From positions 1,180,501-1,244,500 of the forward strand of contig NZ_CP054394.1 of NCBI RefSeq assembly GCF_022539405.1: a DNA stretch of 64,000 nt, written 5' to 3'. Under the pieces are notes generated by a model that searched no databases, had not been told where the DNA came from, and saw only the letters and a program-made list of their open reading frames with translations. Shown piece after piece: positions 44,182 through 50,822 of the stretch (positions within the stretch are counted from its first letter, which is position 1; each line of letters opens with the position of its first letter). The stretch comes from Natranaerofaba carboxydovora. Its GTDB lineage: Bacteria > Bacillota > Natranaerobiia > Natranaerobiales > Natranaerofabaceae. The position numbers and the translations under genes were made by a program.

Positions 44182-44982
44182 TTAATCTCCTAATATACCT
44201 TTTCTATAAGATTTTAGATAGCTGCTGCAAAAATTATCATTACCCATCAAAGCCCTGGTCGATACTATTCTAGCCATCATTTCTTTATCTGTAGGATCTA
44301 AGATTACTGAATCAAGTCCTGACTTCATACATAAGATCATGAAGGTTTGGTTTAGTATTTTTCTCTTAGGAAGACCATAAGAGACATTACTTAAACCACA
44401 TATGGTGTGGACATCATTGAATTCTGAATGTACTCTTTCTATGGTTTCAAATACAGACATTCCATTATTAGTATCTGTGCTGATAGGCTGAATTAATGGA
44501 TCGACGTAAATATCGTCTTCCTTAACCCCTTCGGCTTTTAAATCATTTATAACTTTTTGTGCTACTTCAAATCTTTTTGCTGCGCCCTGGGGTATACCAT
44601 CATCATCCATGCAAAGAACTACTACCTTACAATTGTATTCTTTCACTAGAGGTGTTAGCCCATCATATCTTTCTTTTTCACCACTGATTGAATTTAACAT
44701 AGGTTGTCCGTTTTTGTGTGCCTCTAGCCCAGCTTTTACTGCTTCTGGATTTGGACTGTCAATGCATAGAGGCAAATCAACTTCTTCTTGAACAGTTTCT
44801 ACAAGCCACTGCATTAACTCTGGTTCGTTATTTATAAAGGTTCCACAGTTTACATCGATATAATGGGCTCCGGCTTCTTTTTGGTCTTTTGTAACTTTTT
44901 TAATGAACTCATCATCTTTGTTTTCTACTGCTTCTTTAATCGATTTTCTACTTGTGTTTATTTTTTCCCCTACTATGAGCAT
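44182..44982 (-). CDS. Corrinoid:tetrahydrofolate methyltransferase (AcsE/MtgA type)
   Basis: 266 residues, pterin-binding TIM barrel. IVGEKINTSRKSI, GAHYIDVNCGTF, LPLCIDSPNPEAVKAGL and ICGLSNVSYGLPKR match the methyl-THF methyltransferase family. It moves the methyl group from the corrinoid protein to THF, the step called MtgA in glycine betaine demethylation. It is the last gene of the operon after the transporter. GGGGAGGT precedes the ATG. Confidence 0.92.
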   Translation of the reverse strand: MLIVGEKINTSRKSIKEAVENKDDEFIKKVTKDQKEAGAHYIDVNCGTFINNEPELMQWLVETVQEEVDLPLCIDSPNPEAVKAGLEAHKNGQPMLNSISGEKERYDGLTPLVKEYNCKVVVLCMDDDGIPQGAAKRFEVAQKVINDLKAEGVKEDDIYVDPLIQPISTDTNNGMSVFETIERVHSEFNDVHTICGLSNVSYGLPKRKILNQTFMILCMKSGLDSVILDPTDKEMMARIVSTRALMGNDNFCSSYLKSYRKGILGD

Positions 44983-45006
44983 CAGCTTACCTCCCCTATT
45001 TTAGTA

Positions 45007-46467
45007 TTACTGACTATCTGTCTTTACACCTGATATTTTTTCAGCTTCTCCCTCTCTTGGAGCTGTCTTATCAGCTGGGTACCAGAATCCTGCAACCTTT
45101 GCAAGTACAAGTAAAGCTACAGCTGCTGCTATCAACAACCCTGTGGTTATTTCTGGTGCCATAACAAAGAAAACTGGAACAAAGGCTGTTAAAACTAACT
45201 GTGTCCATGCGAAGATAATATATGCTATTCCGTAATCTTCTAGGGTTTCACTTCTATAATCAGGATCTACAATGCGAAGTAAAACAACACCAAAAGCAAC
45301 TACTCCACTACACCAACCGAAGTTGAAAATACCTCTTTCGAACCAGAAGTTATTAAGCATTCTTGGCGCAATGTAGAATAGGTTAAATAGTAACCACCCG
45401 ACACCTACGATAACTAAGAACAATAGTGGTTGCCAAAGCTCTAATACTACTGAAATTTGGATTGAAGCTACACCAAAGCCAACCATGAAATCTGAAACTG
45501 TACTTCCAATCCTTGTGATTACTTCTTTATCAATGTACTGAGCCATGTTTAGTCTTTCCAATAAAGCCTGGAAAGCAAATCCAAAGATAACTGCAGTAGC
45601 TAGTTCAGGAATATACAAAGGTTCACCTGCCACTTTGAATTGTCCGAGCCATTCTGTCAGATAAACACCTGCGAGAGTAACTAGCAAAACTAAAGCAAGA
45701 TGCCATGCAAGAGGATCTATAGACATTGGAGAAGTTGTTGAAGATCCCATACTTTGTCTATCTTTTTCCTCAACAAGGCCTTTAGTCATAGAAGGAGGTA
45801 AGTTTCCAACCTCATCAACAATCCTTGTATAACCTTTTTTAGTCGCCTGTTTGATGATAAAAATACCTAAAAATACTGCCATTAATAAACCTATAGTTGC
45901 CATAGTCATCCCTATTGTAACAGGATCTTCAAAACCATATTGTCCAAAGGTAGTTCCGATAGCAGTTGCATAACCGTGGCCACCGGCAAAACCTGCAGGA
46001 AGCATCCAGGCGAAACCTTCGTGAAGATCTGGCCATACTATCCTAAACACAGTGATTCCTAAGAGTGCCCCTATGGCAAATTGTGCGACCTCGGCAAATT
46101 TGTTAAAGAAAAATGTTGGCCCTGCTTTATTTACAATCGACTTTAGACCTTTTACTTTCTTTCTACCTATAGGGAAAGTTGCAAAAAGTATTACAACTAA
46201 AAGCCAGGCGTAGTTAGCAATTGCTTCAGACCATGGTATAACATCTATCAACTGCGGCCCAAATATTAGTCCGATAAATCCAGCAATTATTGATGGCGGG
46301 ATGAAGAAATTTTGAAAGAATGCTACCCTTGTTCTTAAAAGTTTTCCTATAAATATCAATAGTGCCATTAAGCCGAAGTCCTTTAATATTGCTAAAGGAG
46401 CTCCTTCCATAATAGCTGAAATAACTTCTGGATGTTCAATTGCCTCCGAAATCATTTCTGGGGACAT
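45007..46467 (-). CDS. ESS/GltS-family sodium symporter
   Basis: 486 residues, about 12 membrane helices. FFIPPSIIAGFIGLIFGP, the glycine-rich LPAGFAGGHGYATAIGTTF and FGVASIQISVVLE match the glutamate:sodium symporter family; it is longer than classic GltS (about 400). It lies between the methyltransferase and the THF methyltransferase, so it probably imports the methylated substrate instead of glutamate. That is inference. GGAGGG precedes the ATG. Confidence 0.82.
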   Translation of the reverse strand: MSPEMISEAIEHPEVISAIMEGAPLAILKDFGLMALLIFIGKLLRTRVAFFQNFFIPPSIIAGFIGLIFGPQLIDVIPWSEAIANYAWLLVVILFATFPIGRKKVKGLKSIVNKAGPTFFFNKFAEVAQFAIGALLGITVFRIVWPDLHEGFAWMLPAGFAGGHGYATAIGTTFGQYGFEDPVTIGMTMATIGLLMAVFLGIFIIKQATKKGYTRIVDEVGNLPPSMTKGLVEEKDRQSMGSSTTSPMSIDPLAWHLALVLLVTLAGVYLTEWLGQFKVAGEPLYIPELATAVIFGFAFQALLERLNMAQYIDKEVITRIGSTVSDFMVGFGVASIQISVVLELWQPLLFLVIVGVGWLLFNLFYIAPRMLNNFWFERGIFNFGWCSGVVAFGVVLLRIVDPDYRSETLEDYGIAYIIFAWTQLVLTAFVPVFFVMAPEITTGLLIAAAVALLVLAKVAGFWYPADKTAPREGEAEKISGVKTDSQ

Positions 46468-46521
46468 ATTTCACCCTCCTTTTTAATTTTGTCCCAATAT
46501 GGAAAAACGGATGGATATTTC

Positions 46522-46542
46522 CCGGGGTCTTAGTGACCCCGG
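46522..46542 (-). other. Intercistronic hairpin between methyltransferase and transporter genes
   Basis: CCGGGGTC (46522-46529) pairs with GACCCCGG (46535-46542) around a 5-nt loop, very stable and without a T-run on the minus strand. It probably sets mRNA ratios by processing or stabilising the upstream message. Confidence 0.6.
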
Positions 46543-46553
46543 AGTATTTATAA

Positions 46554-47999
46554 CTAATCAAGCTTAATATTTGGTTCTTTTTCTTTTATCTTTTCATCAG
46601 CTTCTTTAGGAATTGGGTTTGGTTTATAGTTTTCTAATAGATCTTTAGCTTTAACTTCTGCCTTATCCCACAGGTCCTTTGCACCTGCTTTTTCCCATCC
46701 GGCATAATCGGTACGAGCTGCTAGTTCTGGGAAGAAGAGTTCTTTTCTCATGTGTTTAGTTGTGTGTTTTTGACTTAAGAAGTCGCCTCCCGGTCCTACT
46801 TTAGAAATAACATCAACTGCTAAAGTCTCTTCGTTTACATCAATTCCTTTTAGTGTCCTTAAAATATATCCATTGGCTTCGCTGTCGATCACATATTGAG
46901 CGTAGCTTAGTGTCATACAGCTATCTAACATACCTGCAGCTTCATGAATGAAATTAGCTCCAGATAGGGCTGGTAATATAGCAGTCATAGCTTTCTCAAA
47001 GCCAGCCTGCTGGTCTAGCTGTTTTGAATCAGTGATTCCTCCAGTAGAATATAAAGGTAGGTCATAATATTGGGCTAACTGAGCCGTAGCAGCGTTCATC
47101 ATAGCAGCTTCTGGGCTACCAAAAATACAATTCATCGTTTTCATGTCCATTATTGTAGGAACAGTCGAGTATAGTACAGGAGCTCCTGGATTTACTAATT
47201 GAGTCATTATAACACCTGCAAGTGCTTCTGCATTGATTTGTGCTAATGTTCCAGCTAAAGTTACGGGAGCTGTAGCACCAGAGAGAGGTGCACATGATGT
47301 TGCTACCGGTATTTCTTCTTCTGCAATTCTCATCAATATTTTCACATGATTATCTTCATACTGCAGTGGACTAACAACACTTGATATAAAAGATATGAAA
47401 GGTTTTTCTTTTAGATTTTCTTTGCCTCCAGCAATTTCGGTAGCCATATCAATGACTCTTTCACAACCATCTATAGTGTATACTCCTCCCATGATTGGCT
47501 TTGTAGTGTTGTTCATAGCATGATAAAATCTATTGACATCAGCATCTTTTGTTTCAATTTCATTTGGATAACAGGGTATTAGATAAAAGTGAATATTATC
47601 TAATGCATCTACTAGCTTGGCCGTCTTTTGAACGTCATCACAAGTGGTTTTAACCCTATTTCTGTCAAGATTTAAGATAGACAATGCAGTCCCACCTGTA
47701 CCTAGATAAACTTTAGTTCCTCCAAGCTCTACATTATCTTTGCTTTCATCTCTACTGTATATAGTAACCGTGGAAGGAGCACTTTCTACTGCCCTGGTAG
47801 CGATATCCCGATCAAAATAAACTAATTTTTTCTCATAATCTACTTTAGCCCCTTTTTCTTCGCAGAGTTCTAAAGCTTCTTTGTCACCTAATTTAACCCC
47901 TACTTCTTCTAATAACTGCATAGAAGCTTGATGAATTTTTTCGATATCCTCCTGGCTTAAAAACTTTAAATAGTTTGCTTCTACTCCGCCCTTTAACAT
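46554..47999 (-). CDS. MttB-family methyltransferase without pyrrolysine (glycine betaine methyltransferase-like)
   Basis: 481 residues, start ATG 47999 (AAAGGAGG 10 nt upstream; the longer frame to 48020 starts inside that site). Trimethylamine methyltransferase fold: LGTGGTALSILNLD, TKPIMGGVY and FGSPEAAMMNAATAQLAQYYDLPLYSTGG. The frame is open throughout, with no amber codon in the mid-protein region where pyrrolysine lies in MttB, so it belongs with MtgB/MtpB/MtcB-like quaternary amine demethylases. It moves a methyl group to the corrinoid protein encoded just upstream. Confidence 0.9.
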   Translation of the reverse strand: MLKGGVEANYLKFLSQEDIEKIHQASMQLLEEVGVKLGDKEALELCEEKGAKVDYEKKLVYFDRDIATRAVESAPSTVTIYSRDESKDNVELGGTKVYLGTGGTALSILNLDRNRVKTTCDDVQKTAKLVDALDNIHFYLIPCYPNEIETKDADVNRFYHAMNNTTKPIMGGVYTIDGCERVIDMATEIAGGKENLKEKPFISFISSVVSPLQYEDNHVKILMRIAEEEIPVATSCAPLSGATAPVTLAGTLAQINAEALAGVIMTQLVNPGAPVLYSTVPTIMDMKTMNCIFGSPEAAMMNAATAQLAQYYDLPLYSTGGITDSKQLDQQAGFEKAMTAILPALSGANFIHEAAGMLDSCMTLSYAQYVIDSEANGYILRTLKGIDVNEETLAVDVISKVGPGGDFLSQKHTTKHMRKELFFPELAARTDYAGWEKAGAKDLWDKAEVKAKDLLENYKPNPIPKEADEKIKEKEPNIKLD

Positions 48000-48028
48000 A
48001 ATTATTCTACCTCCTTTCAATAATTTTG

Positions 48029-48661
48029 TTAGCTTACTTGCATAATATCTTTTGACAACTCTACAGCTGAAGATGCATCAGATCCGTACCCATCCGCTCC
48101 AATCTCCTCTGCAAACTCTTCACTGACCGGTGCTCCTCCAACAATTATCTTGGCATCTATATTGTTGTCTTTTAATGCATTAACTGTTTCTTTCATTGCA
48201 GGCATAGTTGTTGTTAATAGTGCAGAAAGTCCCATTATTTCAGGTTTGTGTTCTTTAGCTGCTTCAACAAAATCATTTACAGGCACATCGATTCCAAGAT
48301 CAACCACTTCAAATCCAGAGCTTTCAAGCATCATGACTACCATATTTTTACCTATATCGTGTAGGTCTCCTTCTACTGTACCAACAACTACCTTGCCTAA
48401 ATAGTGATGATCACCTTCCTGCATCATTGGTTTTAGATATTCTAAACCTTTTTTCATAGCTTCAGCACACATAAGAACTTCGGGTACAAATAACTCCCCT
48501 GAAGCCATTTTAGGTCCGATTTCATCCATAGCTTTAGTTAATCCCTCTTGAGTGATCTGTTGAATAGGGACATCACTGTTTAAAGCTTCTTTAATATTCT
48601 CTACAACATCCTCTTCTTCTCCTGCCATAACAGCTTCACGAATTTTCTCGGTTGCTTCCAT
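48029..48661 (-). CDS. Corrinoid methyl-carrier protein (MttC/MtgC type)
   Basis: 210 residues. The helical cap domain (1-85) precedes a B12-binding Rossmann domain with the DLHDIGKNM motif (axial His), the GLSALLTTTM loop and VGGAPV. It carries the methyl group on cobalamin between the MttB-like and THF methyltransferases. It lies 29 bp before the MttB-like gene. AAAGGAGG precedes the ATG; the 201-bp region upstream should hold the operon promoter. Confidence 0.94.
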   Translation of the reverse strand: MEATEKIREAVMAGEEEDVVENIKEALNSDVPIQQITQEGLTKAMDEIGPKMASGELFVPEVLMCAEAMKKGLEYLKPMMQEGDHHYLGKVVVGTVEGDLHDIGKNMVVMMLESSGFEVVDLGIDVPVNDFVEAAKEHKPEIMGLSALLTTTMPAMKETVNALKDNNIDAKIIVGGAPVSEEFAEEIGADGYGSDASSAVELSKDIMQVS

Positions 48662-48844
48662 TTAAATTCCTCCTTTTTCTAACTAAAGTTTATTTACGCT
48701 CAATTTGGTTTCGTAATAATACTAACATGACTTCATATGACATTGTTTAACACTATTCTGCTTATTTTGATATAAATCTATCGGAATACAATATTATAAT
48801 TGTTTTAAATATATTGAAAATTGATCGATACTCAAACACAAAAA

Positions 48845-48869
48845 AAGGCAGGGTTATAAACCCTACCTT
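48845..48869 (-). terminator. Terminator of the regulator/corrinoid unit
   Basis: AAGGCAGGGTT (48845-48855) pairs with AACCCTACCTT (48859-48869, one mismatch) around ATA, followed by a T-run on the minus strand. It overlaps the last codons of the second corrinoid gene and separates this unit from the methyltransferase operon. Confidence 0.8.
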
Positions 48870-49513
48870 ACAAGCATTTTCTTTAAATTTTTTTCAAGAT
48901 AATCTTTAGTCTCTAGTGCATCTGAAAAATAATAATCTGCCCCTATCTCATTTGCAAAAACATCGGTTACAGGTGTTCCTCCAACTACTATTTTAAGATT
49001 TTTCCTTAATGGAAGCTTATTAACTTCTTTTATTATATCCTGCATCACTTTCATTGTTGTGGTTAAAAGAGCTGAAATCATTAAAAAATCTGGCTCTTCT
49101 TCTTTCACTGCTTTTACGAATCCTTCGACTGTAATATCTACACCTAGGTCTATTACTTTAACACCTAAAGAATTCAAATAAATTTTCACAAGGTTTTTTC
49201 CAATGTCATGTATGTCTCCTTCAACAGTACCTAGGACTGCCTTTGCTTTAAAGTGATTATTGTCTGACTTAAAATAAGGCTCTAAAATTGTATACCCAGC
49301 ATACATTGCCCTTGCTGACATTAATACTTCAGGAACAAGAACTTTTTCGTTTTTAAACTTTTTGGCTACGTCATCAATACCTGATATAATGCCTTTTTCT
49401 AAAACAACTTCAGGTGGATACCATTTTTTTAGTGCTTCTTTAGTAAGTTCCATTACTTTTTCGGCTTCACCTACATAAATTGCTTCTCTAATTTTTTGAA
49501 AAAAATCCTCCAT
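48863..49513 (-). CDS. Second corrinoid methyl-carrier protein
   Basis: 216 residues. Same architecture as the corrinoid protein 200 bp downstream: cap domain, DIHDIGKNL, SALLTTTM, VVGGTPVTD. Clearly diverged, so not a recent copy. It lies 25 bp after the PocR-AraC gene, with its own terminator. It may serve another methyltransferase elsewhere or act with the regulator as a sensor; no direct evidence. Confidence 0.9.
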   Translation of the reverse strand: MEDFFQKIREAIYVGEAEKVMELTKEALKKWYPPEVVLEKGIISGIDDVAKKFKNEKVLVPEVLMSARAMYAGYTILEPYFKSDNNHFKAKAVLGTVEGDIHDIGKNLVKIYLNSLGVKVIDLGVDITVEGFVKAVKEEEPDFLMISALLTTTMKVMQDIIKEVNKLPLRKNLKIVVGGTPVTDVFANEIGADYYFSDALETKDYLEKNLKKMLVR

Positions 49514-49538
49514 TTTAAATTAGCACCTCTCAAACTTA

Positions 49539-50822
49539 TTAGAATAAACTGTTTTTATAAACTATAGGAGTAACACCAATATATTGTTTAAATATTTTTG
49601 AAAAATAGCTTTGGTTTTTAATCCCAACAGACCTAGCTACTTCTCCTACACTCATTTCGGGCTTTTTTAGTAGTTCTACAGATTTCTCAACTCTTACTCG
49701 GGTTATATATTCATTAACAGTGCAATTCATTTCTTGTCGAAAAAGCCTGCTTAAATGTGATTCACTAATGCATAAATAATTACTAACATCTTCAATTTTT
49801 ATTTGCTTATCATAATTTTCCATAATATAATTTCTAGCTTCCTTAACAAGATTTAAATACTTCTTATCCGCTAACGCAAATATATTTTCAAGAAACTTTT
49901 CGACTATTGCCCAAACTTTATAAATTAATTCTTCAACTTCTAAATTTCTTATCTCATTATTAAATTTTTCAAGTAGTTTCATGGTTGTTTCCGCATCAGA
50001 ACCTCCGTCTACTGCTGCCCGCGAAACAAGAGAAGTCAATTCTAATACTCTTGCACGTATTATATGCTTCTTGCCTCCGGTTTTAATGTATAGGTCGCTT
50101 AGGAGGTCCTCAAGGATTTTTGTAGTATTGGTCTTATCACCTAATCGGACATAACGTAATAGTTTTTTTTCTTTTTTGAAGTAACTTTCGTATATATCCG
50201 GCACTTGATATTTTTTGCGTTGTTTCTTTTTTTCTTCTAATTTTTGTCTAATAATTTCTTGCTCCATTTTAATCGATTTTTCTTCTTCTAAGAAATGTAT
50301 ACTTCTTTTAGTTAGGTGATTGACCATTATGAAAAGCATGTCAGCAGCAGCTTGGGAATTATCTGAGGATAATACTTCAATATTTAAGGCAAGTTCTTTT
50401 AATTTATCAAATTCTTCTATAATAGGTTTTAAAGAGTTTAGTTCATACCAAAAAAAATCATCAGGTTTCCAAAGTAATACCTGTCCACATATTATGCTTC
50501 CAATCGGATTATCCTGCATGTATATAGGTACTGCCCATATAACTAATCCAGCATGGCATCTAAAAAAATATGGTTCTTTCCATTTTACAGCTTCTCTATG
50601 AGCCCTTTCGTAACACGATTGACAAAGATCATTTCCTTCTTTGGTACTACGTATCATCTTACAAAACTCTTTTCTATCAATATCTTCAGGTGAATAGAAA
50701 GTTTGCCCTTTTTCATCAACTATTTCTACATTTAAACTAGTTGCTATACAAAAGCTTTTTAATACATCATTAAAGTATCTTTGATCAATAAAGTCTTTAT
50801 TAGCAATGCTTTGTTGAGTCAA
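49539..50822 (-). CDS. AraC-family regulator with PocR sensory domain
   Basis: 427 residues, start TTG 50822 (GAGGTGA 5 nt upstream). A longer frame to 50903 is rejected because a promoter overlaps its start. The PocR domain (about 5-170) has Cys-rich FCKMIRSTKEGNDLCQSC and a GSIICGQVLLW block. A helical linker precedes the AraC double helix-turn-helix (about 330-427, IKIEDVSNYLCISESHLSRLFRQ). PocR regulators often control corrinoid methyltransferase and propanediol genes, so it likely activates the adjacent operon. Confidence 0.9.
   Translation of the reverse strand: MTQQSIANKDFIDQRYFNDVLKSFCIATSLNVEIVDEKGQTFYSPEDIDRKEFCKMIRSTKEGNDLCQSCYERAHREAVKWKEPYFFRCHAGLVIWAVPIYMQDNPIGSIICGQVLLWKPDDFFWYELNSLKPIIEEFDKLKELALNIEVLSSDNSQAAADMLFIMVNHLTKRSIHFLEEEKSIKMEQEIIRQKLEEKKKQRKKYQVPDIYESYFKKEKKLLRYVRLGDKTNTTKILEDLLSDLYIKTGGKKHIIRARVLELTSLVSRAAVDGGSDAETTMKLLEKFNNEIRNLEVEELIYKVWAIVEKFLENIFALADKKYLNLVKEARNYIMENYDKQIKIEDVSNYLCISESHLSRLFRQEMNCTVNEYITRVRVEKSVELLKKPEMSVGEVARSVGIKNQSYFSKIFKQYIGVTPIVYKNSLF

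Follow-up and report, generated by a model that had tools for sequence, protein, structure and literature searches.

In a 64,000-nt window of the single-contig genome (3,264,732 bp) of Natranaerofaba carboxydovora, we analyzed a six-gene cluster at 44182-50822 in which a pyrrolysine-free methyltransferase of the MttB superfamily is encoded next to an ESS-family (GltS-like) transporter, of a family so far known only for glutamate. The cluster probably serves to import and demethylate a quaternary amine that bears a carboxyl group and is not glycine betaine. MttB-type demethylation is a known kind of system; what is new here is the pairing with an ESS transporter, and we found no paper in the open-access library searched that joins MttB systems with an ESS/GltS carrier. 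Single genomes carry dozens of MttB-superfamily members. Six members with an identified physiological substrate are counted in PMC12155760. With the linkage described below, haloalkaliphilic acetogens would have a specific way, open to testing, of living on osmolyte methyl groups.

Linkage of the ESS-type carrier and MttB

Among 398 genomes of the phylum, ESS matches at E≤1e-60 are present in 10 and matches at E≤1e-100 in four (the host genome, G130, G298, and G381). In all four, an MttB gene of the 37-row tree group that holds the window MttB (see below) lies 54 to 137 bp from the ESS gene. MttB matches occur in 57 of the 398 genomes; the probability of drawing four MttB-positive genomes by chance is ∼4e-4, adjacency not yet counted. 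None of the six genomes with weaker ESS matches (34 to 38% identity) is among the 57.

Named genomes were scanned with two short peptide patterns, a search that is no census. It matched 99 stretches, 23 of which encode ESS relatives; the ESS protein as a single query found no relative in the named-genome contigs, and a profile gave the 23. Nine of these relatives lie at an MttB gene, eight directly and one (L079) with two genes between. They belong to Thermincola, Natroniella, Fuchsiella, Maledivibacter, Dethiosulfatibacter, two Synergistaceae, and two metagenome-assembled genomes (MAGs) of Clostridia, and the pairing thus spans Bacillota and Synergistota. Thermincola holds all six genes in changed order, at 52 to 63% identity. 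Three of the nine linked loci (L078, L083; twins G130, G298) overlap with the 398-genome survey, and the contigs of L090 and L100 are short.

On a 43-row ESS tree with 11 linked rows, the MttB-linkage label needs 4 changes, compared to a shuffled mean of 9.9; none of 500 shuffles was as low, although near-copies contribute to this result. Within the 37-row group, the ESS-linked MttB genes are spread over three distinct subgroups. The conserved linkage, the three subgroups, and the label test together suggest that the ESS-MttB pairing is old or was formed repeatedly, and it is most simply explained as functional. Because of the conserved linkage, the ESS-type protein is, on genomic grounds, part of the demethylation system rather than a stray neighbor.

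Sequence comparison makes the ESS assignment of this carrier a remote one: it scores 25.3 bits against the gltS equivalog TIGR00210, far below the cut-off of 310.75, and shares 17% identity with Escherichia coli GltS. The ESS family has GGXG motifs in two putative re-entrant loops. The first-loop motif, GGHG, is invariant in 15/15 aligned proteins, GltS among them; in the second loop, GHCGFGLGATPTAIANM of GltS is aligned opposite GWCSGVVAFGVVLLRIVDP of the window protein. R398 and D401 are invariant in all 19 rows of the carrier subfamily alignment. An AlphaFold2 model of the carrier (mean pLDDT, 82.6; pTM, 0.80) is closest to AspT and CitS, which fill the top nine rows with Z scores of 15.7 to 18.1 over 346 to 366 residues at 10 to 13% identity. 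The oxaloacetate decarboxylase subunit and Na+/H+ antiporters score lower in this list, which carries no information about families that it does not name. In Foldseek, NapA and CitS lead the list (E, 5.5e-5 to 9.3e-5). Fold and alignment together fit an elevator transporter that carries a carboxylate and whose binding loop differs from the GltS loop. Solved structures were searched by sequence with three queries (the ESS protein, a profile of it, and E. coli GltS), none of which returned a GltS structure, so the comparison of the GltS and carrier loops is one of alignment alone.

The MttB protein and its substrate

The earlier note had read the sequence as a PocR-AraC regulator, two corrinoid proteins, an MttB protein, an ESS transporter, and a methyl-tetrahydrofolate (methyl-THF) methyltransferase, and open frames, Pfam, and NCBIfam bear this gene content out. 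Its claim of a pyrrolysine-free MttB with an unbroken frame also holds. The residue aligned with pyrrolysine (Pyl) 334 of Methanosarcina barkeri MttB (PDB 7xcl) is Ile, encoded by ATC, and there is no in-frame stop in any of the six MttB genes of the host genome. The protein scores 500.7 bits against the pyrrolysine trimethylamine methyltransferase model TIGR02369 (cut-off, 525), and a PylS model search of the host genome gave nothing over the cut-off. Gly110-Thr111, described as a cis peptide in the M. barkeri structure (PMC9842639), is kept in the window MttB by alignment. Tyr364 is aligned opposite His359, invariant in 18/18 and 12/12 aligned relatives.

To place this protein, we used an MttB tree of 94 rows, inferred by a quick method with SH-aLRT support. 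The window MttB falls into a 37-row group that leaves out MtgB and every pyrrolysine row; with its relatives in Thermincola (G130), G270, and G294 (60 to 63% identity), it forms a subgroup with support of 100. It matches MtgB (PDB 2qne) at an E of 9.8e-93; an AlphaFold2 model of the window MttB, low in confidence near the active site, was not used. Because the window MttB is outside the MtgB group, two other MttB proteins of the host are inside it, and a third host MttB gene adjoins a BCCT carrier gene, a substrate other than glycine betaine is favored. The earlier note had left a choice between a new betaine importer and a different zwitterion, and the tree moves this choice away from glycine betaine. 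In our ranking, an amino-acid-type betaine comes first and a compound of the carnitine/γ-butyrobetaine type second.

In the proposed route, the PocR-AraC protein would sense the substrate and turn the genes on, as its domains imply. The ESS-type elevator carrier, probably Na+ coupled, would import the carboxyl-bearing quaternary amine; its family and linkage point to both import and coupling. To judge from their families, MttB would pass a single methyl group to the Co(I) of a corrinoid protein, either MttC1 or MttC2; the 266-aa methyltransferase would then hand it to tetrahydrofolate, from which it would enter the Wood-Ljungdahl pathway and acetate synthesis. We count a CODH/ACS gene in the host genome and a RACo-type activase gene beside another of its MttB genes in favor of this sink.

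Neighboring genes elsewhere provide hints about the substrate. In G381 (L063 and L152), three MttB genes and an ESS gene are followed by genes for urocanase, FTCD_C, FTCD_N, an amidohydrolase, an aromatic amino acid lyase, and methylaspartate mutase E (MutE); the amidohydrolase and the lyase are named imidazolonepropionase and histidine ammonia-lyase by their place, and urocanase and FTCD_C are named from the Natroniella relatives. In Natroniella (L080), urocanase and FTCD_C lie behind the cluster and MutL lies in front, with a diaminopimelate epimerase-like gene between. In Fuchsiella (L083), the ESS gene, a methyltransferase gene, and one unscanned gene precede those for MutE and methylaspartate ammonia-lyase. 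These Halobacteroidaceae clusters, beside histidine-to-glutamate and methylaspartate genes, are possible hercynine or glutamate-betaine islands; no paper on glutamate betaine demethylation was found by title in the open-access library searched. An ornithine cyclodeaminase/mu-crystallin gene precedes MttC-MttB-ESS in Dethiosulfatibacter, the two Clostridia MAGs, and one Synergistaceae contig (one scanned, the others assigned by clustering), and two Synergistaceae loci also carry aconitase X. Taken together, the neighbors hint at amino-acid betaines but do not settle the substrate of the window cluster.

Aconitase X was also seen near ESS-subfamily carriers in L084, L087, L089, and L092 (one scanned, the others by clustering), with MttB adjoining or not. 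In gut and other bacteria (L082, L086, L089-L093, and L095), ESS-subfamily genes lie near carbon-nitrogen hydrolase, DUF6282, or BCCT genes, with MttB not adjoining.

A more tentative proposal extends beyond this cluster: an ESS subfamily that has moved off glutamate and a matching pyrrolysine-free MttB group might form a widespread anaerobic pathway by which amino-acid betaines that no known MttB system handles are used. Examples would be hercynine or glutamate betaine for acetogens of soda lakes and proline-type betaines for others.

Several observations weigh against our interpretation of the window cluster. The E≤1e-100 line was drawn only after a gap in the E values had been seen. The carrier subfamily is not restricted to MttB systems: 14 of the 23 ESS relatives have no adjoining MttB. 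The 37-row group has a support of 91, with several open forks inside. The amino acid genes sit with other MttB subgroups and are absent from both the window cluster and that of Thermincola. A search of the host genome found no urocanase; hercynine breakdown via urocanase in the host was therefore rejected, and the histidine route of Halobacteroidaceae is not transferable to it.

Gene layout in other genomes raises the possibility that the substrate is L-carnitine or γ-butyrobetaine and that the window MttB is a relative of MtcB/MtyB with only the carrier swapped, from MFS to ESS. An MttB of the 37-row group in G142, 50% identical to that of the window, is divergent to a sigma-54 activator and adjoins an MFS gene; MtcB and MtyB are reported to have a divergent RocR-like activator and an MFS carrier beside the gene (PMC8604678). 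The same activator is present in G294, with a gene of similar size, its family not scanned, at the MFS place, and in both G270 and G294 a 60 to 62% relative of the window MttB shares a gene run with an MttB of this activator-type layout. However, the window has neither a RocR-type activator nor an MFS carrier, and the comparison with MtcB and MtyB is one of published layout. We consider this substrate class unlikely here.

Distinctly less probable is a role of the carrier in exporting the demethylated product, or in exchanging it for the methylated substrate, with uptake left to another carrier. AspT, whose record title calls it an Asp/Ala antiporter, ranks among the closest folds, and Pfam finds no catabolic genes for the product in the cluster. 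On the other hand, PMC12344293 describes members of the ESS family as Na+ symporters, and there is no second importer in the cluster.

We also very much doubt glycine betaine as the substrate, with the ESS protein as just one more importer of it. The host is probably halophilic, MtgC models are the best NCBIfam matches of both corrinoid proteins, and in G080 and G111 an OpuA-type ABC importer lies by genes related to this MttB group. Nevertheless, MttC1 reaches 218.9 bits against an MtgC cut-off of 370, the host keeps four full BCCT carriers elsewhere in its genome, and two of its other MttB proteins, not that of the window, group with MtgB. An ordinary Na+/glutamate symporter caught in the operon by chance would agree with PF03616 membership, but is equally hard to reconcile with MttB linkage in 4/4 phylum genomes and across two phyla, with a score far below the gltS model, and with a replaced second-loop motif.

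Gene layout and sequence features

Six open frames, all on the minus strand, make up the cluster; they run from 50822 to 44182 in the order of the table.

Features of the cluster; positions are those of the 64,000-nt window
Feature	Position	Strand	Evidence or remarks
PocR-domain AraC-family regulator	49539..50822	minus	PF10114, 140.1 bits; HTH_AraC/HTH_18 (Pfam)
Corrinoid protein MttC2, two-domain B12-binding	48863..49513	minus	GDIHDIGKN; PF02310, PF02607
Stem-loop and T-run ending MttC2, terminator-like	48845..48869	minus	11 pairs
Corrinoid protein MttC1, two-domain B12-binding	48029..48661	minus	GDLHDIGKN; PF02310, PF02607
Pyrrolysine-free MttB-superfamily methyltransferase, 481 aa	46554..47999	minus	PF06253, 404.8 bits (cut-off, 25)
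PYLIS_3 (Rfam) match inside mttB	46937..47036	minus	above gathering score; starts exactly at the Pyl-equivalent codon
Divergent ESS-family (GltS-like) transporter	45007..46467	minus	PF03616, 53.7 bits (cut-off, 26)
Methyl-THF:corrinoid methyltransferase, 266 aa, role like MtgA/MtqA	44182..44982	minus	PRK07535, 371.1 bits (cut-off, 259; NCBIfam); Pterin_bind (Pfam)

The gap between MttC2 and MttC1 is 201 bp; the others are 25 bp (PocR-MttC2), 29 bp (MttC1-MttB), 86 bp (MttB-ESS), and 24 bp (ESS-methyltransferase). This spacing suggests two transcription units, PocR-MttC2 and MttC1-MttB-ESS-methyltransferase, and from layout only we infer that all six genes may form one regulon. Four terminator-like sites were observed over the region, compared to a shuffled mean of 4.2, so they are not above chance. 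A GC-rich hairpin at 46522-46542, between mttB and the ESS gene and without a T-run on the operon strand, is possibly a processing or attenuation element.

The regulator starts at TTG 50822, behind gaggtg, in a frame that itself runs on to 50903. It scores 135.9 bits against the PocR equivalog (cut-off, 500), with both the PocR sensory domain and the AraC helix-turn-helix present (Pfam). MttC1 and MttC2 both have cap and B12-binding domains and score 202.3 and 170.5 bits, respectively, against TIGR02370 (cut-off, 215.3). For MttB, ATG 47999, behind aaaggaggt, is the most likely start, rather than TTG 48020.

The first triplet of the PYLIS_3 model is UAG, in place of which the window mttB has the sense codon ATC. 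Six related loci (L058-L061, L063, and L071) hold 10 pyrrolysine-free MttB genes, and PYLIS_3 matches 10/10 of these above its gathering score, compared to 0/5 other MttB genes of the host genome. We therefore rejected the match as a mark of a lost or hidden pyrrolysine gene; it follows coding similarity, not recoding, and by these comparisons the Rfam family lacks specificity for pyrrolysine insertion.

The host genome carries six MttB genes, one ESS gene, and one BCCT fragment in addition to the full BCCT carriers. A run of three MttB genes with a corrinoid protein gene and a methyltransferase gene (G000:C1:1479068-1484510, L075) includes one MttB of the MtgB group.

Comparison with known systems

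The carrier shares PF03616, above its cut-off, and the GGHG motif with the Na+/glutamate symporters of the GltS/ESS type; it differs from E. coli GltS in low identity, in failing the gltS equivalog, and in the replaced motif of the C-terminal loop. It shares the fold of its predicted model with the elevator transporters CitS and AspT, which are distant in sequence and take citrate and aspartate/alanine, respectively.

Among methyltransferase systems, MtgB/MtgC/MtgA of Desulfitobacterium hafniense, which acts on glycine betaine (MtgB PDB 2qne and 9yce), likewise combines a pyrrolysine-free MttB-family protein, a corrinoid protein, and a methyl-THF methyltransferase. Unlike that system, the window cluster has its MttB in another tree group, another carrier, and corrinoid proteins under the MtgC cut-off. 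The MthB/MthK phosphocholine system of Eubacterium limosum also brings an MttB member, a corrinoid protein, a methyltransferase, and a carrier into one cluster; an EamA carrier adjoins MthB (both per PMC12155760), and neither this carrier nor the choline kinase of the MthB cluster is present in the window cluster. For MtcB (L-carnitine) and MtyB (γ-butyrobetaine) of E. limosum, the likeness is one of layout only: genes with their published layout occur in the 37-row MttB group, whereas the window has PocR-AraC and ESS instead of a RocR-like activator and MFS.

These systems also bear on the earlier statement that an ESS carrier is unexpected because BCCT or ABC importers are usual for betaines. 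BCCT and ABC importers are not the sole known partners, given the MFS and EamA carriers beside MtcB/MtyB and MthB (PMC8604678 and PMC12155760, respectively); the linkage of an ESS carrier to MttB stands as the addition made here.

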